Made by a program: the position numbers and the translations under genes | Part shown: one piece after another, positions 1 to 39,360 of the stretch | Layout of the letters: the number at the start of each line of letters is the position of its first letter | Numbering within the stretch: position 1 is the stretch's first letter | IMG/VR virus record: IMGVR_UViG_3300044712_001727 | Location: 1 to 39,360 of that record | Reading direction: 5' to 3' (one strand) | DNA: 39,360 nucleotides | DNA from: a virus | The notes under the pieces: model-generated | What the model was told of the DNA's origin: nothing | Database searches by the model: none | Seen by the model: only the letters and a program-made list of their open reading frames with translations

Positions 1-127
1 AGCGGCAAAACTGGGCAGCGGGATGATTGGCATCATTGATCTTCTCGCTGTTAGCCAGGCCGTCGTCATCGCTGTCGGTACCGTCGGAGATGCCCCGGTT
101 TTTCTTCTTGTACTCCAGGTCCATCTT
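1..127. repeat. Exact 127-bp repeat at the left window end
   Basis: Identical to 39110-39236, with the mismatch at 128 against 39237. Its length matches the right-end repeat. Confidence 0.85.
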
Positions 128-349
128 CTCGCCCTCGGCCTTAGGAGCCACGATCAGGGCGTAGCGTTCACCATCGATTACTATCTCGCCGCCGAAGAAG
201 CCGCCGGCCAGTGGTAAGCCCATGAGTGCAAATGGTTCTGGTAGAAAGAGCCGCGCACCGATATCCAGTGTCACGTTAGGCTCTGTCTCTACGATGTTCT
301 GCCATCCTGGTTGATTGTTGTTCACTACTGTTGCAATCGGTTTCATCAT
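1..349 (-). CDS. DGR target protein, N-terminal part (runs off left edge)
   Basis: Open reading frame from ATG at 349 (or 346, which lies 7 nt from an AGGAG site at 354-358) that leaves the window with no stop. The visible 116 residues have a distinct N-terminus of about 45 residues. They then match the two complete target proteins at 38275 and 38835: GGFFGGEIVIDGERYALIV, APKAEGEK, a DGTDSDDDGLANSEKIND stretch, then NHPAAQFCR, which in the complete copies leads into the DUF1566-like variable domain. The first 127 bases are identical to 39110-39236. Inference: this is a third target of the DGR, and its different N-terminus may be a virion anchor. The truncation looks like an assembly breakpoint rather than a broken gene. 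Confidence 0.8.
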   Translation of the reverse strand, partial: MMKPIATVVNNNQPGWQNIVETEPNVTLDIGARLFLPEPFALMGLPLAGGFFGGEIVIDGERYALIVAPKAEGEKMDLEYKKKNRGISDGTDSDDDGLANSEKINDANHPAAQFCR

Positions 350-370: not shown

Positions 371-1981
371 TTACCCACACAGCGCTTTTTTGTCCTTCAT
401 CAACTCATCCCAGGCGTTTTTCAACTGAAACGGATGTTCAAATTTTTCGACAGTAGACCAGTTTTTGCGACCGGACTTGATACGCGGAACAGAGCCGTGA
501 CCAGGGATGACACCTTCAGTGCGGTAAAAGTCGAAACCGGCCGCATAGAGCTTCTTGGCACTGGTGTTCATGACGACTTTTCCGCGATGATCTACTTCAA
601 TACAGCTGCCCATCTGCAGCATCTCTTTGAGGGTTCTTTCGGCTGCGGCGTAGGTATTGAACATAACTTCCGGAGCCCACCCCTGGAGATAGTTATCCCA
701 AGTACGCTGGACGGTTTTTTTATCCCGGTCGTATCTGACCAGAATGAAGCCAGCGCCGAGGAGCAAATTTTCATCGCGGGAATAAATATCAGCAACGGCT
801 ATGCTTTCGGTGTTTGGCAATTCGGGCTGCAGCTCTTCAGGTTCCAGCAGGTTTTCAAACAGCGAGGCCTGTCTGGTGAGCCGCGGGATCTGGCGCAGGC
901 CTGCAGGACCATATTCAAAAATTTTCAGATAGCCGTTATAGATCTTCGCTTCGTGATCTTCGTGGATGGTACCGATCTTCCGGTAATAGTCGATAATGGC
1001 GTCGACGCTTTTAAAACGGGCGGCGTGATCAGGATCATAGGAGACGCCCCAGTCATTACGTGTGCGCTCGACATAGAGCTGGGCCGGATAGTGGGATACG
1101 GTTTCAGCTGACATCCAGCCGAAGATGAAGGCAGGCTTGAGCGGGCGCTTTTTGGCAGGTTTCGGTTTTGGTTCAGATTCCGCTGGTGATGCATCCGGAT
1201 CGGGAATAATAGCTACAACCGCGGGCAAAGCGCCGCTATCGCGCTTTATCAGACAGTCGTGCTCCGGGTCTTTGGCAAGGCTGATACATTCCGTGCGCCT
1301 GGAACATGATTTTGAACAATGTCCGAGCCGTTCGATAATGGCGTCGACCATAATCCGTTCATCGTCGGATATTTTGCCCTGTCCGGAACAAAGGGCCTGC
1401 TCTGTCGTTACCAGCCCGGCAATGATGGCGGTGATGGTGCAATATTTTGCGTATGAGTGTTCCCGGTCCGGTACCGGGATCATTATGTGTGGCCGGGTTG
1501 CCAGAGGGCATACTCCACAGACCGGCATGTCTTCAACCCGGGTGAGCTGTTTGATGTCCGGAAGCGGGTAGCGGGTCCAGTCTCCGCCTATAGGGTGACA
1601 GAAGTAGGGCTCCAGGACCGATTGTGCATCAGTTTCATACGACTTTGAAAAATCGTTGATGGCCGCGATGATTTTATCGGTGTCGGTTTTTTTGGATTTT
1701 CCGGCATATTCATCGACCTTTTTCCGCAATCCTATCAACTCATACATGACCGCGGCGGCAATACTATCAAACCCTCTACCTACACGATATGAAGGACAAC
1801 CGCCACACCCTGGGGTTCCACTGACATAATAAAATTTGTAGTCGTAGCCTGAATAAAATCTCCCGTCAGGGCCGCAAGCCACTTGTATTTCAAGCTCGGT
1901 TTTAGTCTTTTTATCGGAGAACACAGGAAGGGACACATAATCCACAAGCACACCATGCTCGTTTGGCTGTGTAGGTTCCAT
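371..1981 (-). CDS. Cysteine-rich phage protein of unknown function (536 aa)
   Basis: I do not recognise a family. The ATG at 1981 overlaps the stop of the sliding-clamp gene by one base (TAATG) and is preceded by AGGAGG, so the two genes are translationally coupled. The N-terminal half contains paired cysteines: C59-x2-C62, C128, C155-x2-C158, C181, C198 and C222-x3-C226-x5-C232-x10-C243. That spacing could bind zinc or an iron-sulfur cluster. A low-complexity linker rich in Lys and Pro (about residues 265-285) separates this from a C-terminal half with aromatic-rich segments. It is the last complete gene of the replication operon before the DGR target at 349, so a role in DNA replication or repair is possible but unproven. 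Confidence 0.75.
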   Translation of the reverse strand: MEPTQPNEHGVLVDYVSLPVFSDKKTKTELEIQVACGPDGRFYSGYDYKFYYVSGTPGCGGCPSYRVGRGFDSIAAAVMYELIGLRKKVDEYAGKSKKTDTDKIIAAINDFSKSYETDAQSVLEPYFCHPIGGDWTRYPLPDIKQLTRVEDMPVCGVCPLATRPHIMIPVPDREHSYAKYCTITAIIAGLVTTEQALCSGQGKISDDERIMVDAIIERLGHCSKSCSRRTECISLAKDPEHDCLIKRDSGALPAVVAIIPDPDASPAESEPKPKPAKKRPLKPAFIFGWMSAETVSHYPAQLYVERTRNDWGVSYDPDHAARFKSVDAIIDYYRKIGTIHEDHEAKIYNGYLKIFEYGPAGLRQIPRLTRQASLFENLLEPEELQPELPNTESIAVADIYSRDENLLLGAGFILVRYDRDKKTVQRTWDNYLQGWAPEVMFNTYAAAERTLKEMLQMGSCIEVDHRGKVVMNTSAKKLYAAGFDFYRTEGVIPGHGSVPRIKSGRKNWSTVEKFEHPFQLKNAWDELMKDKKALCG

Positions 1982-3111
1982 TACGACCTCCTGACCATGA
2001 TCACCTCCAGCCGCTCATCCCAGTTGCTATGATCGGTGGGAAGAAGGATAACTGCCGAGTCCGGATCCCTGTATTTGATGACGACGTCCTCCGAGTCACG
2101 GGCCAGGGATTTGAGGGCATCGAGGAGATAACGGGGCGTGATGCAGATATCTACTTCGCAATCGCTCGCTTCACATGCAACGCTGTCGGAGATGTCGCCG
2201 GCTGAGTTGGATCCGGCTACAGTGATATGATCCGGCCGGATCCGCAGGTTGATGCCGTCTGATTCGATCAGCACAGAGACACGATCGATAACATTGATCA
2301 GCTCTTTACTGTTGACGACAGCGGTGTATGGGTAATTTACCGGTACGCAGCGGCGATAATCAGGATATTGAGATTCGAACAGGCGAGCCAAAATGGTGAT
2401 GCCAGTTTGTTCGACACTCATATGGTTGTCGCGAAAACGGATGGCGGTTGATACCCCACCGAGTTTTTTTATTTCAGCAAGCGCACGGGGGGAGATTGTG
2501 ACACCGGTGTCGAATTGTTCACAGTCTCCGCTGTAGGGAATCGATACGGCAGCGACTGAGAGTCGGTGGCCGTCAGTGGCGGCGCCACAAATACGGTCGT
2601 TTTGAGCGCGCAGGTTGAGCCCGCTGGTAGAAGCGCCTTCCGACTGCCCGATGGCGTGCCCGATAGCATTATATATTCCAGAGAGGAATGTCCCGTCACA
2701 TTCTACATCCGGCGCACCGCCAGGAATATCCATGACTGGGAAATGTTCGTCAGGATCCACACAGGCGATAACACCGCTGTAGTCTCCGCAATTGATTTGT
2801 AGCCGCCTGTTTTCGAGACCGGTGAGGCGGATGGTTTTTTCAGGAAGGGTATGGACGATGCCGGAGAATTTATCAGCCGAGAGACATACAGCCCCTCCCC
2901 AGGCGCAGTCGAAATATCCACGCGGATCTATTTCACACAGAATGCCGACCTTGAGATCAGTGGCCGCGCACGTGACCCGCCGAGCAAGAAAAAAGTCGAG
3001 CAAAAAATATGGGTGTTGCCGCCCTACTGCGCCGCGCGCCCGGTCGAGCAAATAGCACAAATCCTTTTTATCCAGTTCCACTGACAATCCCTGTCCTTTT
3101 ACGTTCGCCAT
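1981..3111 (-). CDS. dnaN: DNA polymerase III beta subunit-like sliding clamp
   Basis: A 376-residue protein close to the usual length of bacterial DnaN (about 366). The sequence reads as a three-domain clamp, with segments such as SADKFSGIVHTLPEKTIRLTG, ATDGHRLSVAAVSIPY and FESQYPDYRRCVP, which correspond to well-conserved DnaN motifs (TDGHRL; F-x-YPDY-x3-P). The C-terminus EVIMVRRS resembles the V-M-P-M-R-L tail that forms the binding cleft. The start is ATG at 3111, with GGAGG six bases upstream. The open frame continues to 3519, but that extension overlaps the zinc-finger gene and lacks a ribosome site. The protein would encircle DNA and tether a polymerase. No DNA polymerase is encoded here, so it presumably captures a host polymerase. 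Confidence 0.88.
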   Translation of the reverse strand: MANVKGQGLSVELDKKDLCYLLDRARGAVGRQHPYFLLDFFLARRVTCAATDLKVGILCEIDPRGYFDCAWGGAVCLSADKFSGIVHTLPEKTIRLTGLENRRLQINCGDYSGVIACVDPDEHFPVMDIPGGAPDVECDGTFLSGIYNAIGHAIGQSEGASTSGLNLRAQNDRICGAATDGHRLSVAAVSIPYSGDCEQFDTGVTISPRALAEIKKLGGVSTAIRFRDNHMSVEQTGITILARLFESQYPDYRRCVPVNYPYTAVVNSKELINVIDRVSVLIESDGINLRIRPDHITVAGSNSAGDISDSVACEASDCEVDICITPRYLLDALKSLARDSEDVVIKYRDPDSAVILLPTDHSNWDERLEVIMVRRS

Positions 3112-3176
3112 AGCATCCTCCATAGTTGTTATGCCGTTTCCGGCCCCCTCCCCCTCGCCGCGCGCCCTTTTTATCC

Positions 3177-3569
3177 CTATCCGTCTACAGACCCGCCGCC
3201 AGTGATGGATAATTGACCCAGGACGGCCAGCCGATCCAGCATGTCCCGGACACACCCGGGAGACTTGCCGAGTAGTTTTCCAATATGCGGTACCGGCACC
3301 GCTGAGAAGTGCAGCAGCAGCAACTTGACAAATTCCTCCGGCTCCCATTCGGTGCCCCGCAGCGGCGCGATCGTCGCCATCGGTCGGAAGGAGGATCCGT
3401 GTGCCCGGCAGTAGGTCCGCTCCAGGGCCTTGAAGCTGGCCAGCGGCTTGGTACCGGTAATGATGGCGCCACAGACGGGGCATATGATGCCGGCAGGCAA
3501 ATACTGCCGGCGGATCCACGCCCAGGCGGTCGGTCGGTCGATGATGTCAAGTAATTGCTCAATTTTCAT
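3177..3569 (-). CDS. Zinc-finger / HTH DNA-binding protein
   Basis: 130 residues. Near the N-terminus C30-x2-C33 and C54-x2-H57 could coordinate zinc. The C-terminal part, PHIGKLLGKSPGCVRDMLDRL, looks like a helix-turn-helix. The ATG at 3569 overlaps the stop of a small frame ending at 3566 (ATGA), suggesting translational coupling. It lies between the tail-Z-like gene and the sliding clamp in the early operon. A DNA-binding accessory role in replication or late-gene control is a guess from motif and position only. Confidence 0.65.
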   Translation of the reverse strand: MKIEQLLDIIDRPTAWAWIRRQYLPAGIICPVCGAIITGTKPLASFKALERTYCRAHGSSFRPMATIAPLRGTEWEPEEFVKLLLLHFSAVPVPHIGKLLGKSPGCVRDMLDRLAVLGQLSITGGGSVDG

Positions 3570-10798: not shown

Positions 10799-11248
10799 AT
10801 GTCAACAAAAAAAATAGATTCATGTGGTTTATTTTCTAATAGGCTGACATTATTACTAAAAGAAAATCGAATCCGAAAAAACAAACTTGCGGAAGAAATA
10901 GGGCTCACTCCCCAGGCAATTACTCATATGACCAAGGGACGCAGCAATCCATCACCACAGACAATCAAATCAATAGCCCGTTTTTTTAAAGTCACTGAAG
11001 ATTGGTTGGAATATGGAACTGGAATCAAGGATGCAGAAGAAGACATGGAAGATTATTACGCCAGCCAGAGATATCTTGGCGAACCAGAGCAACCAAAAAC
11101 CATTGCCGAACGGATTGGATCTGGCTACTTCCCAGAAGTAAAACTGATTGCCGATTATATGGATGTAAAATTCAAAGGGAAAACATCGGAAGAGCGATTA
11201 AAGATTGTTGAGGATATCATGGAGGATATCAGACAAAAGTATAAGTAA
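10799..11248 (+). CDS. CI-like phage repressor (XRE-family HTH)
   Basis: 149 residues. The N-terminal XRE helix-turn-helix domain (residues about 12-72: NRLTLLLKENRIRKNKLAEE, then IGLTPQAITHMTKGRSNPSP) is followed by a typical FKVTEDWLEYG segment and a short charged helical C-terminus. There is no LexA-type peptidase domain, so RecA-driven self-cleavage is unlikely and induction must work another way. It is the best candidate for the lysogeny repressor and for binding the three 23-bp operators downstream. The plus-strand gene ends at a bidirectional hairpin terminator. Confidence 0.75.
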   Translation: MSTKKIDSCGLFSNRLTLLLKENRIRKNKLAEEIGLTPQAITHMTKGRSNPSPQTIKSIARFFKVTEDWLEYGTGIKDAEEDMEDYYASQRYLGEPEQPKTIAERIGSGYFPEVKLIADYMDVKFKGKTSEERLKIVEDIMEDIRQKYK

Positions 11249-11628: not shown

Positions 11629-12657
11629 ATGAAAACCGTGGTTGTTGCGTGTTTACTGCCGTTCTTCTCTACTACATGTTTTTCCGCAATCAAAGGCGAT
11701 ATGAACGATGACGGAGAAGTTGATATTGCGGATGCATTGATCGTTTTACGTACAGCTATTGGCGTCGAACCAAAAATATCGATTCCTGTTCCTATACAGC
11801 CAGTGTGCCCCGCCCCGGTAGTTTGCCCTGCCCCGATTGTATGTCCATCTCAGACAATATGCCCCGCAGCGACAATCTGTCCGACTCCGATTGTATGTCC
11901 TGCGCCGACAGTTTGCACCCCAACAACAATAATTATTAAGGACTCTACCACCTGCCGGACTCCAACCGCAGGTTATCCTAAAATAGTGAAAAGCATTCCG
12001 TTCCCCGCTGGCGTGACATATTTTTCCGATCTTGCTTTTGACCGGGTGAACAACACCGCGTGGCTTCTCGCCGGAAATGATACCGGACAGCCGAAATGGT
12101 TAGTGCATATAGCAACTGATGGCACGGTACTGGGAACCAATGCCTATGTGAACACCACATGGTCAGTTAATTATGGCAGCTTCCTGGCTAGCAATGGTGT
12201 GTCGATTTGGGCAACATCTTATGGATGGCTGAATGGTATTCCAATTACAAAAGTATATTCTCTGGATACATCCGGCAATGTTTTGAAAGAGATTCCTTGC
12301 CCGGCAACTACTGCCGGTGGATTTTGCACGGGCATCACATGGGATGGGTCCAAATTCTGGACCGTAGCCAGCGATAGTAAGGACCTTGTATCTTTTTTTC
12401 CTGACGGCACCATTTCTGCAAAGTTCATCGGCATTTTTCCCGAAGTATCGAGATCTCGAAACCTGTTTTATGACTGGGCTAAATCCCGCCTAGTTGCCTC
12501 CGATAAAACCTATCTCGACGTCATCGATACTTCAACCGGCATCAGAACACGCACCTTTCCATACAACAACGGCGTGAACGGCGATTGGGATGGTCAATAT
12601 TTTTGGAACATCAACACTTCCACACTCCAGATAGAAATTATGGATCTGGGGATATAA
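11629..12657 (+). CDS. Secreted dockerin-like / Cys-Pro-repeat / propeller protein
   Basis: 342 residues. A signal peptide (about residues 1-20: MKTVVVACLLPFFSTTCFSA) is followed by one dockerin/EF-hand-like calcium loop, DMNDDGEVDIADAL (residues 24-37). Next comes a linker of seven Cys at exactly six-residue spacing (C60, C66, C72, C78, C84, C90, C96), with units such as VCPAP. The rest, from about residue 115, has propeller-like repeats (AFDRVNNTAWLLAG, ITWDGSKFWTVAS, NGDWDGQYFWNIN). It is a non-virion lysogenic conversion candidate. The RBS is GGAGGGG, and only 6 bases separate it from the integrase gene, so the two are likely co-transcribed under the operator cluster. It is not a standard phage gene. 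Confidence 0.75.
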   Translation: MKTVVVACLLPFFSTTCFSAIKGDMNDDGEVDIADALIVLRTAIGVEPKISIPVPIQPVCPAPVVCPAPIVCPSQTICPAATICPTPIVCPAPTVCTPTTIIIKDSTTCRTPTAGYPKIVKSIPFPAGVTYFSDLAFDRVNNTAWLLAGNDTGQPKWLVHIATDGTVLGTNAYVNTTWSVNYGSFLASNGVSIWATSYGWLNGIPITKVYSLDTSGNVLKEIPCPATTAGGFCTGITWDGSKFWTVASDSKDLVSFFPDGTISAKFIGIFPEVSRSRNLFYDWAKSRLVASDKTYLDVIDTSTGIRTRTFPYNNGVNGDWDGQYFWNINTSTLQIEIMDLGI

Positions 12658-12663
12658 CGCTAC

Positions 12664-14121
12664 ATGACCACCTGTGCCATCTACATCCGCAAATCCCGTG
12701 AAGAAAAAGACAAACCCTCACACCGTCTGACAGTCCAGCGCGAACAACTCCCGGCATACGCAGCCGTACAGGGCTGGAACAGCATCACCTACGACGACGG
12801 CCACGCCTCAGCCGCCCAGGGTAAAACATCCGACCTCAAGGAACGCGCCCGCCTTGAAGCCGATATCCGCTCCGGAACAATCGACATAATCCTCTGCATC
12901 GAACTCTCCCGACTCTCCCGGGATGACTCCCTCCAGGACTACGTTGCCTGGCTCGATCTCTGCTCCAGAAACAACGTCCGGCTCGCAACCATGTCCAGGA
13001 TCCTCGACCCGGCCCAACATAGCGACTGGATGCTGCTGCTGATGGAAGGCGGGTTTTCATCTGTCGAGATGAAAGTGCTCCAGGGGAGAATGAAAGAAGG
13101 GCGTCAGGAAGCGTTCAGGAGCGGGAAATTTATGGGGGGATTGTGTCCACCGCCATACATCTACGACAAGGCCACAGGCAAACCCACCGTTGACCCTGAT
13201 GCACTGAAACGGATGCAGCAGCTATGGTCTCTGGCAGAACAGCACGGCACCCGGCACATATCCCAGGTCATCAACATGCCGCTTATCGCCATCCGGCGCG
13301 CCATATCAGACGAACGCCTCCTCTACTACCAGGCGCTCCGCCAGAGTCCTGACGGCGGCGACATGATCCCCTGCGACTGGCAACCGGTCATGACCGCAGA
13401 ACAGGCCGCCCTCATCAAAGCCCGGCGCACAGACCGCATCAAAGGCTATCACCGCAGGGAATCCGGAGGACTCCTCAGCGCCATGGGAATCCTCGTATGT
13501 GGCTACTGCGGCCGCAGCTGCCGCAGCTGGGCTAATAGCAGAGACAAGGCCACATGGTACGGCTGCAAAGCCAACGAGCACGCCCGCACCTGTCAGCCGT
13601 CGCGCCTGATTCAGCAGCAGCTTGTCGATCATGCCGTCACCACGCACGTCCTTAACACACTGGCCGATCAAGATCAACTCCGGAGCGCATGGGAAGCCAA
13701 TCAGGGCACCGACGACAGCGCAGCCAGGATAAAAGAGATCAACAGGGAAATCTCCACCATCACCGATCGCAAACAGCGACTGATCCACGCCATCACCGAA
13801 GGCGTCATCGAGCTCGCCGACGCCAAACAGATGCGCATGGCGCTCGATGCCGAACTCCAGGCGGCAGAAACCAGCAGAGGGAACATCCTGTCGAACATCA
13901 GTACGCCTCCGGACTGGCAGGCCATGGCCGTCACCGCAAAGAAATTCCACGCCCTCGACACTCCGGATCAGCGAGAAATCATCCGCCTGAGCCTCGCCGA
14001 AATTCGCCTCTACTCCTCATATGCTACATGCACCTACAGATTCCCGCGAGACCAACACGGAAGCACCTCCGCAAGGATTCACCTGCCCCCGAAATTATCA
14101 CCCGGAAGAAAGCCCCTGTAG
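12664..14121 (+). CDS. int: Large serine recombinase (phage integrase)
   Basis: 485 residues. The N-terminal resolvase domain has the catalytic serine S11 in YIRKSREE (the usual Y-x-R-x-S motif) and the conserved arginine region ELSRLSRDD (residues 80-88). A recombinase domain follows. A zinc ribbon at about residues 277-310 (VCGYCGRSC...WYGCKANEHARTC) and a coiled-coil-like stretch (KEINREISTITDRKQRLIHA) come next. This is the layout of phiC31-type integrases, which join attP to attB without host factors. Unusually, it lies 6 bases behind the secreted-protein gene and shares its regulation. The 250 bases downstream hold the expected attP. Confidence 0.92.
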   Translation: MTTCAIYIRKSREEKDKPSHRLTVQREQLPAYAAVQGWNSITYDDGHASAAQGKTSDLKERARLEADIRSGTIDIILCIELSRLSRDDSLQDYVAWLDLCSRNNVRLATMSRILDPAQHSDWMLLLMEGGFSSVEMKVLQGRMKEGRQEAFRSGKFMGGLCPPPYIYDKATGKPTVDPDALKRMQQLWSLAEQHGTRHISQVINMPLIAIRRAISDERLLYYQALRQSPDGGDMIPCDWQPVMTAEQAALIKARRTDRIKGYHRRESGGLLSAMGILVCGYCGRSCRSWANSRDKATWYGCKANEHARTCQPSRLIQQQLVDHAVTTHVLNTLADQDQLRSAWEANQGTDDSAARIKEINREISTITDRKQRLIHAITEGVIELADAKQMRMALDAELQAAETSRGNILSNISTPPDWQAMAVTAKKFHALDTPDQREIIRLSLAEIRLYSSYATCTYRFPRDQHGSTSARIHLPPKLSPGRKPL

Positions 14122-35500: not shown

Positions 35501-36201
35501 TCGTCATCCTCTTCCGGCCCCTGGATCGGGCGGCTGTAGTTATCAAGCACCTTGCGGTTGATGCCGAGCATGAAGCTGATCAGGTCCGGCGCTTTTTGCG
35601 GATCACCTCCGACCATTTTAATTATCCTGCCGGCGGAGCTGCGGGCGGAGGCGTCCAGATGCGTCTTGAGGTCGCTGGCCCGGGCGGCAAGTTCAATTTC
35701 TACATGTTCACGGGGGATCAGTTCGCCCTGGCGCTCCTTATACTTCAGCTCACGCAGACCGGCATCGCTAGAAATACGCCGGATTTCTTCCTTAAGCTTC
35801 TGTTCCTGAAGGTTAATCATGTCATCCGTGGCGGATCCGTCCTTGCGCTGTAGATGTTGCCGGGCATAATCCTGGGCGGCGGACAGGGTGTATTTCCCGT
35901 CCGGGCCGGGCCGGATCTTTCCATCATCGCGGTGTTCATAGGCGCTGCTCCTACTGATCTTCCACCCCTCGGCATCCAGATACGCGACTACATCCATGAG
36001 CGAGTCGAACAGATGCTCCCCGCCGGACTCGTAGCGGGAAGTGCGGAAAGCTTTAAGGGCGGCCTCGGCTTTTTTCAGGCTCTTGAGGTTGGCACCGGTC
36101 GGCTTGCGCTTGGCCAGCTCCAGGGCATCGTCGCGGTGAGCAACAAGGCGCGCTTCTTCCTGGTCGATAGCTGCGGTTATGTCAGGTGCCGAGATGGTCA
36201 T
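35497..36201 (-). CDS. terS: Terminase small subunit (Nu1-like)
   Basis: 234 residues. The N-terminal helix-turn-helix (ISRSSAYEHRDDGKIRPGPD), preceded by an acidic/basic leader, a coiled-coil-like centre (EQKLKEEIRRISSDAGLREL) and a C-terminal helical region. It fits Nu1-like recognition of the packaging site, and it lies immediately upstream of terL. The ATG 36201 overlaps the previous gene. Confidence 0.75.
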   Translation of the reverse strand: MTISAPDITAAIDQEEARLVAHRDDALELAKRKPTGANLKSLKKAEAALKAFRTSRYESGGEHLFDSLMDVVAYLDAEGWKISRSSAYEHRDDGKIRPGPDGKYTLSAAQDYARQHLQRKDGSATDDMINLQEQKLKEEIRRISSDAGLRELKYKERQGELIPREHVEIELAARASDLKTHLDASARSSAGRIIKMVGGDPQKAPDLISFMLGINRKVLDNYSRPIQGPEEDDE

Positions 36202-36476
36202 GGCTCCGGATCCTCGACGTAGTACCCACGCTCGACGTTGTCGTAGAGGGTTTGCTCATACCCCATGGCGATGTCTGCTCCCCTGCCCTCCAGGATGTGA
36301 TGCAGGGTTTCAGCGCTGTGTTTGGCGTTCCACGTTTCTGTCGCGGCCCGCTGCAGATTGCACCATAGCAACTCCCAGCCTATCTCAAATACTTCGGGAA
36401 GAAGATGCCACCATTGGCGACAGAGAGAATTGGAGACAAAGCGGGTGGTGGGGAACTGGTAGAGGTCGCGGTTCAT
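36198..36476 (-). CDS. Hypothetical protein before terS (92 aa)
   Basis: A Trp/His-rich helical protein (WWHLLPEVFEIGWELLW). Its stop overlaps terS by 4 bases, and it starts 34 bases behind the reverse transcriptase stop. No domain recognised. It could be the first gene of the late operon. Confidence 0.55.
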   Translation of the reverse strand: MNRDLYQFPTTRFVSNSLCRQWWHLLPEVFEIGWELLWCNLQRAATETWNAKHSAETLHHILEGRGADIAMGYEQTLYDNVERGYYVEDPEP

Positions 36477-36510: not shown

Positions 36511-37641
36511 TCAATTTAAGCGTTTCCTGAATACCTTCGTAAATCCGCCATCCACACAATGCCCCTTACGGAGCGCCACCCTTGCGAGTCTCGCCCTGAC
36601 ACCGTGGCTGTGGTCCGACTGCCGGAACAATCCGAAGTAGCTGTTCGCGCTCCGCACAAAATTTTTACAGCTCTTACTGGTTACTGTCTTCCAGACATTA
36701 TCCCGCGTCGTCCGCCTCAGCACCCTTCGCCATGGCTTGATGATCTGTCCAACAAAATCCACGCCTCGCTCGATTGGCTGAAGGATCGTCTTACGCGGAT
36801 TGAGCGCCAGACCGAGGTACTCCGAGACAAACCTGCCGATCTCAGCACTGGCAGCGTTCAGCCAGGTCGGGGAATCATGCAGCAACACCATGTCGTCAAC
36901 GTATCGGATGTAGTGCCGAGCTCCTATACGGTGCTTTATATGCTGATCGAGTACATCCAGGTAGACATTGGCGAAAAACTGGCTGCTGAGGTTGCCGATC
37001 GGCAGCCCCAGGTGAGGGGGTTGGTTAAACAGGCTCTTGTGTGGCGGGATCAGGGCCAGCAGGTCAGGTGCGGCCTTGATCCGGACGTTTTCACGCGGAT
37101 CATGGAAGAGAATGGTATCGACCAGCCGCATTGTCCACGGTTCATTGATCTTCCGAGACAGCAGATCGCGGAGGATGTTCTTGTCGATACTGACAAAGAA
37201 GTTGGCCATGTCGAGCTTCAGGTAGTAGGCCCGGCGCGTCCAGTTCTGCGTGATGCTCCTGATCTTATGTTCCAGGCGTTTTGCGCCGTACAGCGTGCCA
37301 CGGCCAGGTATGCAGGCGCAACTATCCGCGATGAAGGAGCGATGGAACCTATCCGCAATTCGATTGTAGAGCAGGTGGTGCACGATCCTGTCCCGGAAGT
37401 CGGCCGCCCATACCTCGCGGGGTTTCGGCCTGGTTACCACAAAACAGATGGAGGTGCCGGGCTGATAGCTCCCGTCCACCAGCTCCCGGTACAGCTCCAT
37501 GATGTTGCGCTCCAGGCTGGTTTCAAACTTTAATGCATTGGCGGTATTGCGCTTGCGCTTGCGGCAGTCGTAATAGGCGCACAGCAGTTCATCCACCGTC
37601 ACGTCGGCATCGCTATGATCTGCGGACCGCTCGAACCCCAT
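36511..37641 (-). CDS. DGR reverse transcriptase
   Basis: 376 residues from ATG 37641. A longer in-frame ATG at 37677 would make its leader from the template repeat. The reverse transcriptase domain has LKLDMANFF (D144), LGLPIGNLSSQ (about 211-221) and the active site YVDD (247-250). The IGxxxSQ form of motif 4 separates DGR RTs from group II intron RTs (QGxxxSP). It copies the TR RNA into cDNA with random errors at adenines, with Avd as partner. It is downstream of avd and TR in the usual avd-TR-RT order. Confidence 0.93.
   Translation of the reverse strand: MGFERSADHSDADVTVDELLCAYYDCRKRKRNTANALKFETSLERNIMELYRELVDGSYQPGTSICFVVTRPKPREVWAADFRDRIVHHLLYNRIADRFHRSFIADSCACIPGRGTLYGAKRLEHKIRSITQNWTRRAYYLKLDMANFFVSIDKNILRDLLSRKINEPWTMRLVDTILFHDPRENVRIKAAPDLLALIPPHKSLFNQPPHLGLPIGNLSSQFFANVYLDVLDQHIKHRIGARHYIRYVDDMVLLHDSPTWLNAASAEIGRFVSEYLGLALNPRKTILQPIERGVDFVGQIIKPWRRVLRRTTRDNVWKTVTSKSCKNFVRSANSYFGLFRQSDHSHGVRARLARVALRKGHCVDGGFTKVFRKRLN
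37620..37640 (-). other. Predicted IMH-like 3' end of template and targets
   Basis: In TR and both VRs this end (GGGGTTCGAGCGGTCCGCAG on the coding strand) is unchanged, although it contains adenines. It is the expected initiation-of-mutagenic-homing region (IMH, IMH*). Sequence beyond it differs between TR and VR. Confidence 0.7.
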
Positions 37642-37719
37642 TGTTGTTGTTCTTATTGTTGTTGTTCTGGTTGCCATTGTTGAAATTCACGATCCATGCG
37701 TTGTTGGAGTTAGAGGCGT
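37620..37719 (-). repeat. DGR template repeat (TR)
   Basis: A 100-bp copy of the variable regions at 38288-38387 and 38848-38947. Read in the target frame it has 16 Asn codons of AAY type in about 34 codons (NASNSNNAWIVNFNNGNQ... and onward), the usual adenine-rich template. All differences to the two VRs fall on coding-strand adenines. It overlaps the RT leader and lies behind avd. Confidence 0.93.
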
Positions 37720-37891
37720 TATGTCGTGATGCTCACGTCGCACAGCGGAAGGCATTGCCGATCCGCCATGAAACTGCGGCGCGACCTTGCAGGGCCAATG
37801 CCCGCCGGTTTCGTCTTAAGGCGCTTTACCGTGGGGGCCTTTCCCCAGGGACACGACCAGATTATTCGCACGGACATAACCGCCATGACGG
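37720..37891 (-). other. avd-TR spacer without a convincing gene
   Basis: 172 bases between TR and avd. A 68-residue frame (37719-37925) exists but has no good start and no domain. In DGR systems the flanks of TR are structured RNA needed for cDNA synthesis, so a non-coding role is likely. Confidence 0.4.
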
Positions 37892-38245
37892 TCATGCAAC
37901 AGGCGACGATGCGGACTTGAGCCAACCAGATGATTGCCTGCCGATCTGGTCGGTCAACTCGATGGTCTGGGCGAACTGTCCCGTGCTGATCAACCGCATG
38001 TCCTTGGACAGCCTGAGCAGTAACGTCACCACCTGGAGGTGCTCCTGTAGTGTTTCCAGGTGGTGACGCTTATCGCGGGAACAGTTTGCCCGATAGATCA
38101 GCACGGTCAATTCGACACACTCCTCACGGATCTTGCCACCGAGCGATTGCTTGTAGTCACGAGGCATATCTTTAGTTATACGGGTGACCACCTGGAGCAG
38201 ATCATAGGTAACGCGGTATATGGGAAGTGTCGAAGCCAGTGCCAT
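37892..38245 (-). CDS. avd: DGR accessory protein Avd
   Basis: 117 residues: helical, basic, with LPIYRVTYDLLQVVTRITKD, the segment REECVELTVLIYRANCSRDK and QEHLQVVTLLLRLSKDM. This fits the Avd four-helix bundle that forms a pentameric barrel and binds the RT and the TR RNA. ATG 38245 has AAAGGAA upstream. It lies between the first target gene and TR. It is needed for mutagenic homing. Confidence 0.85.
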   Translation of the reverse strand: MALASTLPIYRVTYDLLQVVTRITKDMPRDYKQSLGGKIREECVELTVLIYRANCSRDKRHHLETLQEHLQVVTLLLRLSKDMRLISTGQFAQTIELTDQIGRQSSGWLKSASSPVA

Positions 38246-38274
38246 AGTTGATTCCTTTTTAAATAGTTAAAGGG

Positions 38275-38799
38275 CTAAATTTTTAATCTGCGGACCGCTC
38301 GAACCCCACCGTTGAAGCTCTTACCGCTGGTGCCCTGGCTGCCACTGCCGAAACCCACGACCCATGCGTAGTAGGAGCTAGAGGCGTGCTCAGTGCTGGA
38401 CCAATACCAGGTCGTATCGAATGCCTCTGCCCCACCGGCACGGAAGAGTTCAGGAGTCTTCTTACGGTTCGGGCCGAGTGCCATCCAGATCCGCATCAAC
38501 TCATCCCGTGAAGGCAAATACCAGTCATTGAAACCGCCGATCTGGAGCGACCGGCAGAACTGGGCGGCAGGGTGATTATCGTCGTTGATTTTCTCACTGT
38601 TAATAAAGCCTTCTTCGTCACTGTCGGTTCCGTCAAAGGCATTCAGCTTTTTCTTCTTGTAATCCAGGCTCAACTTTTCGCCCTCGGCCTTTGGAGCCAC
38701 GATCAGGGCGAATCGCACTTCATCAACGATGATCTCACCAGCGAAGAATCCGCCACCAAAAGCCACTCCCAAAGCGGGTATAACCAATTTTTTTGCCAT
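38275..38799 (-). CDS. DGR target protein 1 (DUF1566/C-type-lectin-like variable domain)
   Basis: 174 residues. An N-terminal beta segment GGGFFAGEIIVDEVRFALIV, a DGTDSDEEGF acidic loop, then the DUF1566-type domain (FNDWYLPSRDELMRIW; FDTTWYWSSTEHAS). The C-terminal variable region, residues about 138-171, ends GGVRAVRRLKI. The variable residues sit on a C-type-lectin-like surface that would contact the receptor. The start ATG at 38799 has GGGAGG upstream. It shares its first 127 bp with target 2. Confidence 0.93.
   Translation of the reverse strand: MAKKLVIPALGVAFGGGFFAGEIIVDEVRFALIVAPKAEGEKLSLDYKKKKLNAFDGTDSDEEGFINSEKINDDNHPAAQFCRSLQIGGFNDWYLPSRDELMRIWMALGPNRKKTPELFRAGGAEAFDTTWYWSSTEHASSSYYAWVVGFGSGSQGTSGKSFNGGVRAVRRLKI
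38288..38387 (-). repeat. DGR variable repeat VR1
   Basis: 100 bp aligned to the TR with no gap. By hand count there are 21 substitutions, all at template adenines (coding strand). The resulting surface includes SSSYY, GFGSGSQG and SFN changes. Confidence 0.93.
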
Positions 38800-38834
38800 G
38801 CTGCACCTCCCTTAATTGTTAAATTGGTAAATGG

Positions 38835-39359
38835 TTAAATTTTCAATCTGCGGACCGCTCGAACCCCATTGGCGTCGCTCTTACCGTCGTAGCCCTGGGA
38901 GCCATTGCTGAAATACACGACCCACGCGTAGCCGGAGTAAGAGGCGTATTCGGTACTTGACCAATACCAGTCCCGTTCAAACGCCTCTGAGCCGCCCTCG
39001 CGGAAGAGTTCCGGAGTGTTCTTCCGGCTCAGGCCCAGGTTGCGCTCCAGTAGCGCCAGTTCATCACGCGACGGTAGATACCAGTCATTAAAGCCTCCAA
39101 CCTGGAGCGAGCGGCAAAACTGGGCAGCGGGATGATTGGCATCATTGATCTTCTCGCTGTTAGCCAGGCCGTCGTCATCGCTGTCGGTACCGTCGGAGAT
39201 GCCCCGGTTTTTCTTCTTGTACTCCAGGTCCATCTTTTCGCCCTCGGCCTTTGGAGCCACGATCAGGGCGAATCGCACTTCATCAACGATGATCTCACCA
39301 GCGAAGAATCCGCCACCAAAAGCCACTCCCAAAGCGGGTATAACCAATTTTTTTGCCAT
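38835..39359 (-). CDS. DGR target protein 2 (mosaic of target 1 and target 3)
   Basis: 174 residues with the same plan as target 1. The N-terminus (to about residue 42) is identical to target 1 at base level (39234-39360 = 38674-38800, 127 bp). The next stretch (39110-39236) is identical to the left-edge target at 1-127. The variable region has YASYSGYAWVVYFSNGSQ and SDANGVRAVRRLKI. The ATG is at 39357-39359, at the window edge, so its ribosome site is outside the window. Confidence 0.93.
   Translation of the reverse strand: MAKKLVIPALGVAFGGGFFAGEIIVDEVRFALIVAPKAEGEKMDLEYKKKNRGISDGTDSDDDGLANSEKINDANHPAAQFCRSLQVGGFNDWYLPSRDELALLERNLGLSRKNTPELFREGGSEAFERDWYWSSTEYASYSGYAWVVYFSNGSQGYDGKSDANGVRAVRRLKI
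38848..38947 (-). repeat. DGR variable repeat VR2
   Basis: 100 bp aligned to the TR without gap. By hand count there are 20 substitutions, all at template adenines. It differs from VR1 in many codons. Confidence 0.93.
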
Positions 39360-39360
39360 G
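39234..39360. repeat. Exact 127-bp repeat at the right window end
   Basis: Identical to 38674-38800, with the first mismatch at 39233 against 38673. With the left-end repeat of equal length it indicates a de Bruijn breakpoint (k=127). Confidence 0.85.

Follow-up and report, generated by a model that had tools for sequence, protein, structure and literature searches.

Positions 36,511 to 39,359 of IMG/VR virus record IMGVR_UViG_3300044712_001727 carry a diversity-generating retroelement (DGR), and we consider it likely that this is an intact DGR of a temperate phage, with a template RNA based on the Rfam family RT-15 and with recipients marked by a phased AT array. The stretch analysed, hereafter the window, is 39,360 nucleotides (nt) long, and every feature of the cassette lies on its minus strand. 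Priming of complementary DNA (cDNA) synthesis in DGRs and discrimination of target from template are known mainly from phage BPP-1, and the widespread clade to which the window belongs appears to solve both with parts other than those of BPP-1.

The locus is a DGR with adenine-specific change from the template repeat (TR) to the variable repeats (VRs). A program alignment placed TR (37620..37719), VR1 (38288..38387), and VR2 (38848..38947) side by side over 100 bp without gaps, as a preliminary description of this DNA had stated, and the homology was found to run 2 nt further, to 37618, 38286, and 38846, respectively. VR1 differed from TR at 21 positions and VR2 at 20, the same numbers as had been counted by hand, and all differences fell on the 38 adenines of TR (21/21, hypergeometric p = 1.4e-11, and 20/20, p = 6e-11, over the 100 positions), with zero differences at other bases. 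The substitutions were 16 A>G, 4 A>T, and 1 A>C in VR1, and 13 A>G, 5 A>T, and 2 A>C in VR2. Read in the VR frame, TR had 15 Asn codons, besides AAG, ATC, and CAG, rather than the 16 first counted. The 117-amino acid (aa) Avd accessory protein encoded at 37892..38245 matched PF22296 (bAvd, E = 1e-16) and phrog_3206 ("Avd protein of DGR"), the match to NF033474 being below the cut-off. The frame of the DGR reverse transcriptase (RT), 36511..37677, opens inside TR, with in-frame ATGs at 37677 and 37641; its product matched RVT_1 and contained the motifs IGNLSSQ and YVDD, and thus the avd-TR-RT set named in the preliminary description was borne out. The best PDB match of the RT was 8ub7 (E = 3e-40), whereas group II RTs reached only 1e-8. 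In a tree of 37 DGR and group II intron RTs, from which retron and Abi RTs were left out, the two groups were split with support of 100/100 and the window RT fell on the DGR side, within a clade (100/98) that also contained the RTs of Burkholderia phage Magia, Shewanella phage vB_Sb_QDWS, Pseudomonas phage Haboob, and many prophages. Eighty viral relatives, individually designated by L numbers below, were fetched and subjected to an ungapped scan for adenine-specific TR/VR pairs, which were present in most of them, usually with two targets each (range, 1–4).

A match to RT-15 (RF03018) was found between avd and TR, at 37717..37908, ending on the first bases of TR. The match was full-length (1–192 of 192) and scored 126.7 bits (E = 1.3e-29), above the Rfam gathering cut-off of 82. 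RT-15 abutted TR in all 30 core-clade loci tested, namely the window and 29 relatives, and was not found in the basal locus L244, plasmid L096, or BPP-1-like loci. The consensus fold calculated by RNAalifold supported RT-15 well, with 50 pairs of which 27 had two-sided changes, and contained zero structure directly downstream of TR. The spacer RNA RF03022, which is located downstream of TR in BPP-1 itself, gave no match around the window TR at E 0.1. The RT frame was phase-locked to the TR end in 67 of 69 loci and remained open through that end in all 69, and the gap from the TR end to the RT match had a median of −8 nt in the clade versus 152 nt in BPP-1-like loci, which indicated that there was no BPP-1-type spacer RNA between TR and RT. 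The TR-brt spacer of BPP-1 recruits bRT-Avd and supplies the priming adenine (PMC12875486); with the spacer missing here, this role must be filled otherwise, and we propose RT-15 as the 5' structured part of the template RNA. As a separate observation, relative L005 carries two type II hammerhead ribozymes (2531–2611 and 3344–3409) upstream of its DGR cassette.

Covariation among 99 distinct loci supported a long-range helix, lying beyond the Rfam model, that would join the RT-15 linker to the 3' end of TR. The proposed 5' arm is AAUA-AUCUG at 37858..37866 and the 3' arm CAGAU-CAUA at 37614..37622. AUCUGG of RT-15 was invariant and the TR-terminal CAGAU near-invariant, and the four bases 5' of AUCUG covaried with the four bases 3' of CAGAU in exact antiparallel register. 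Observed versus expected Watson-Crick pairs at +1 to +4 numbered 44/33, 90/43, 71/51, and 53/39 (z = 3.1, 12.2, 6.4, and 3.9), with all of A-U, C-G, G-C, and U-A in use at +2, and helix registers shifted by 1–3 were flat, with no excess of covariation in these loci. On the RT tree, the branches that exchanged one Watson-Crick pair for another numbered 0, 8, 4, and 6 at +1 to +4 (18 in total), against mostly 0 or 1 compensatory events, and at most 4, for off-register control column pairs. In the window, 37622–37618 pair with 37858–37862, followed by pairs +2 and +3. The +1 position (37617), the first base past CAGAU and the point at which TR-VR identity ends, was weak or mismatched, often with A opposite C; that this adenosine primes cDNA synthesis is conjecture based on the parallel with BPP-1. 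Pairing of the RT-15 linker with VR instead of TR was also considered, and was rejected: clear covariation was lacking at +1 and from +3 to +6, and position +2 alone had a weak excess.

Downstream of the VRs, the clade has an array of ATTT units spaced 8 nt apart, which was searched as TTYAn4TTYAn4TT. The pattern matched exactly twice in the window, after VR1 (38262..38279, TTTAGCCCTTTAACTATT) and after VR2 (38822..38839, TTTAACCATTTACCAATT). It followed 87/116 VRs of the clade, versus 0.27 by shuffling, and 91/153 VRs in bacterial genomes, whereas it never followed TR (0/75 viral loci and 0/73 bacterial-genome loci) and was absent from BPP-1-like loci (0/39). In 761 kb there were 126 matches, of which 120 stood at detected VR ends and 3 more followed sequence resembling the initiation of mutagenic homing (IMH) site; arrays of the latter kind at L011:564 and L075:1205, where no VR was detected, probably mark additional targets that the scan overlooked. 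GNNA-tetraloop hairpins followed 35/39 VRs of BPP-1-like loci (0.14 expected) versus 2/116 VRs of the clade, and by inspection neither VR of the window was followed by a GC-rich hairpin or cruciform with a 4-nt loop. The frequency in BPP-1-like loci agrees with the proposal that such hairpins are a conserved requirement for DGR retrohoming (PMC3240598). The 3' ends of TR and both VRs were identical in the window, and clade-wide there were 20 mismatches in 2740 positions, with no systematic IMH/IMH* difference. Since the TR and VR 3' ends are otherwise alike, the array is the best candidate for the mark that would distinguish VR from TR as recipient. The VR 3' end of the window had no exact match in viral_contigs. 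In the basal locus L244, from a cyanobacterial metagenome-assembled genome and without RT-15, inspection revealed an AT-rich stretch and then a hairpin after the VRs, a single case that may represent an evolutionary intermediate.

These features can be arranged into the following proposed mechanism. One transcript through avd, RT-15, TR, and RT would serve as both mRNA and template, and its structured RT-15 portion 5' of TR would be bound by RT and Avd. RT-15 would fold back, its linker NNNN-AUCUG pairing with CAGAU-NNNN at the TR 3' end as the covariation supports, and the helix would carry that end to the core of the RNA, where cDNA synthesis could begin, possibly at the adenosine that pairs poorly with the first base beyond TR, thereby replacing the downstream spacer of BPP-1. 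The RT would misincorporate at template adenines, as the substitution pattern shows, and the cDNA would be substituted for the VR at the C-terminus of at least two stand-alone Lcl_C lectin proteins, with the array after the VRs marking the recipient and, by its absence after TR, protecting the template. In the resulting proteins, as many as 16 residues of a C-type-lectin fold could be fully randomised, most likely for the binding of molecules on the host surface. For the more specific claim, that of a DGR lineage with an RT-Avd-recruiting and cDNA-priming RNA 5' of the template (RT-15), a covarying fold-back helix, a conserved, poorly pairing adenosine acting as the primer, and recipients recognised by an array instead of a hairpin, we find the balance to be only slightly favourable.

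Several points weigh against this explanation. In the window itself, helix positions +1 and +4 are unpaired, and the AUCUG/CAGAU core is invariant and hence uninformative for covariation. RNAalifold offered an alternative pairing, of UCUGGU in RT-15 with ACCAGA inside TR, which we did not adopt; it was near-invariant on both sides and broken in L086. The strict array was missing from about one-quarter of viral VRs and 40% of bacterial-genome VRs. The RT-Avd-binding part of the RNA and the cDNA start site are taken by analogy from BPP-1, the location of the targets on the virion is putative, and the activity of this phage's own DGR is deduced from relatives, the phage being known from one contig.

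The product of the first target gene (38275..38799) is a stand-alone Lcl_C/C-type-lectin protein of 174 aa (PF07603) with VR1 at its C-terminus. Its AlphaFold model (pLDDT 95.2) consisted of one C-type-lectin domain without an attached tail-fibre domain, and the best structural match was the C-terminal domain of Legionella Lcl, 8q4e (Foldseek E = 1.5e-5; Z = 14.0, root-mean-square deviation 2.8, 123 residues), whereas phmmer of the target against PDB gave nothing significant. The VR2 target gene (38835..39359) also matched PF07603. Sixteen target residues are fully randomisable. Among the relatives, the commonest families flanking the cassette were methylases, HNH nucleases, integrases, RecE, the sliding clamp, and repressors; tail families were missing from the 25 commonest on either side. 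The targets are thus predicted to be small stand-alone lectin domains outside tail modules, and the modelled fold suggests a role as adhesins. A substantial, if less probable, alternative is that, rather than being virion adhesins, they work within the lysogen or at its surface, for instance as hypervariable binders against rivals or host factors. The stand-alone domains and the non-tail neighbours would suit such a role, as would the similar setting in phages Magia, QDWS, Haboob, and Cruim01; however, Lcl_C functions in Legionella as an adhesin domain (8q4e), and the DGR targets known from phages are mostly tail proteins (PMC8144416). The position of these targets outside tail modules invites one to ask what such phages diversify and for what reason.

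The number of targets depends on how the contig ends are read. Window positions 1–127 were identical to 39110–39236, and 39234–39360 to 38674–38800, over exactly 127 nt in each case. Exact end repeats of this length are typical of an assembly graph with k=127, and the contig breaks inside the target array; therefore the sequence 39237–39360, upstream of 39236 and including the 5' part of the VR2 target gene, is uncertain and may be misassembled. The segment 1..349 appears to encode the beginning of a long-form target (MMKPIATVVNNNQPGWQNIVETEPNVTL...), whose remainder is cut off at the contig start. When 349..1 was joined at the shared 127-mer to 39236..38835, the resulting 624 nt formed a 207-aa gene carrying VR2, and the closest relative, L003, has two targets, one of 207 aa and the other of 174 aa. 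A circular genome is therefore probable, with either two targets, a long form with VR2 and a short form with VR1, or three. Three targets, with a real VR2 gene having the N-terminus MAKK, we regard as unlikely: the 39236/39237 junction is unique sequence and so probably has some read support, and relatives vary in target number, but both contig ends are exact 127-mers and L003 has exactly the two forms. An identity of 126 nt between the two target N-termini was also considered as gene conversion, but the assembly graph is the likelier cause, given the exact 127-nt end repeats.

The reading of the array as a recipient mark was weighed against a translational or transcriptional function, such as a leader for the next gene, which is improbable. 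In many cassettes, the window included, the array does sit in a short gap before the next gene; it nevertheless follows VRs whatever gene is next, including those of distant targets, and is absent after TR and almost absent elsewhere in the 761 kb. More improbable still is an ordinary BPP-1-type DGR in which the spacer and hairpin have diverged past recognition and RT-15 is an unrelated regulatory RNA or an avd/RT leader. The core proteins and the adenine chemistry are the same, and deletion of the BPP-1 stem-loop weakens homing without abolishing it (PMC12875486). Against this stand the want of room for a spacer between TR and RT, the near absence of the hairpin from the clade, the abutment of RT-15 on TR throughout the core clade, and the covariation of its linker with the TR 3' end. 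The assignment to the BPP-1 type in the preliminary description accordingly held for the core chemistry of adenine-only change, and failed for the cis-features, there being no TR-RT spacer RNA, VR hairpin, or IMH/IMH* difference. The window resembles BPP-1 (mtd-avd-TR-brt) in having Avd, a DGR RT (33% identity), adenine-only TR/VR differences, a C-terminal VR in a C-type-lectin fold, and the gene order target-avd-TR-RT. BPP-1 differs in having RF03022 3' of TR, 144 nt separating TR from brt, a GAAA hairpin downstream of VR, and a tail-fibre target, whereas the window has RT-15 5' of TR, an RT overlapping TR, the phased AT array, and Lcl_C targets.

The changed positions in the viral relatives comprised 1812/4358 adenines versus 30/9453 non-adenines, and an independent set of 73 bacterial-genome loci gave 1944/4694 versus 30/10937. 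Relatives L012 and L016 (99.8% identical) had 14 differences in 8516 bp, all of them in one VR and at TR adenines, and between L027 and L028 14/20 differences were of this kind. These pairs provide direct evidence, from relatives rather than from the window genome, that mutagenic homing has been recent in the clade, which is large, active, and widespread, with at least 335 viral and at least 115 bacterial-genome pattern matches. That the cassette has decayed and is inactive in this phage, a reading to which evidence of activity from relatives and a single contig leave some room, is very improbable, since every ORF is open, the RT motifs are intact, the VRs carry changes only at TR adenines with zero accumulated changes elsewhere, and those relatives are active.

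Phages Magia, vB_Sb_QDWS, Haboob, and Cruim01 (a Pseudomonas phage) share with the window RTs of 57–63% identity, RT-15 RNA, small targets outside the tail module, and an RT frame overlapping TR; the RTs of the first three were those placed in its RT clade. They differ from the window in their hosts and target N-termini, and their annotations describe only the overall cassette, that of Magia noting a lectin target with an IMH-like region and that of Cruim01 listing RT-15. The Rfam entry for RT-15 does not mention DGRs in its name or type, and its model stops at the TR start, so that the helix with the TR 3' end lies outside it. Legionella Lcl shares the target fold (PF07603) and is a collagen-like adhesin, whereas the window targets consist solely of that domain and have a C-terminus variable through the DGR. 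In the literature searched, which excluded subscription papers and the original description of RT-15, we found no description of RT-15 as part of a DGR template, of the long-range helix, or of the phased array. The window DGR adds a new member to a widespread set, and catalogues of DGRs most likely include loci of this kind already (PMC8144416). The clade connects an RNA family that carries no DGR designation with the DGR template, the base-pairing model is precise and testable by compensatory mutations, and the array would serve as a nearly diagnostic tag by which DGR targets can be located in sequence.

Outside the cassette, the temperate nature given in the preliminary description was supported by a serine integrase (phrog_95, 12664–14121) and a repressor-like helix-turn-helix protein (10799–11248), both identified with PHROGs, which make a temperate life likely. 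The siphophage label was not confirmed, the candidate tape-measure and tail proteins having no PHROG match. The nearest bacterial genomes were those of Geobacteraceae, with RTs 80 and 78% identical to that of the window, and the host is therefore likely to belong to Geobacteraceae. Adjoining the serine integrase, at 11629–12657 on the plus strand, is a gene for a 342-aa protein with a start that looks dockerin-like by eye (GDMNDDGEVDIADALIVLRTAIGV) and no Pfam or NCBIfam match; it is possibly a lysogenic-conversion gene. A 92-aa ORF without a Pfam, PHROG, or NCBIfam match (36198–36476, minus strand) lies between the RT and the small terminase. The phage also encodes a DNA polymerase sliding clamp with DNA_pol3_beta domains (phrog_947) at 1981–3519 on the minus strand.

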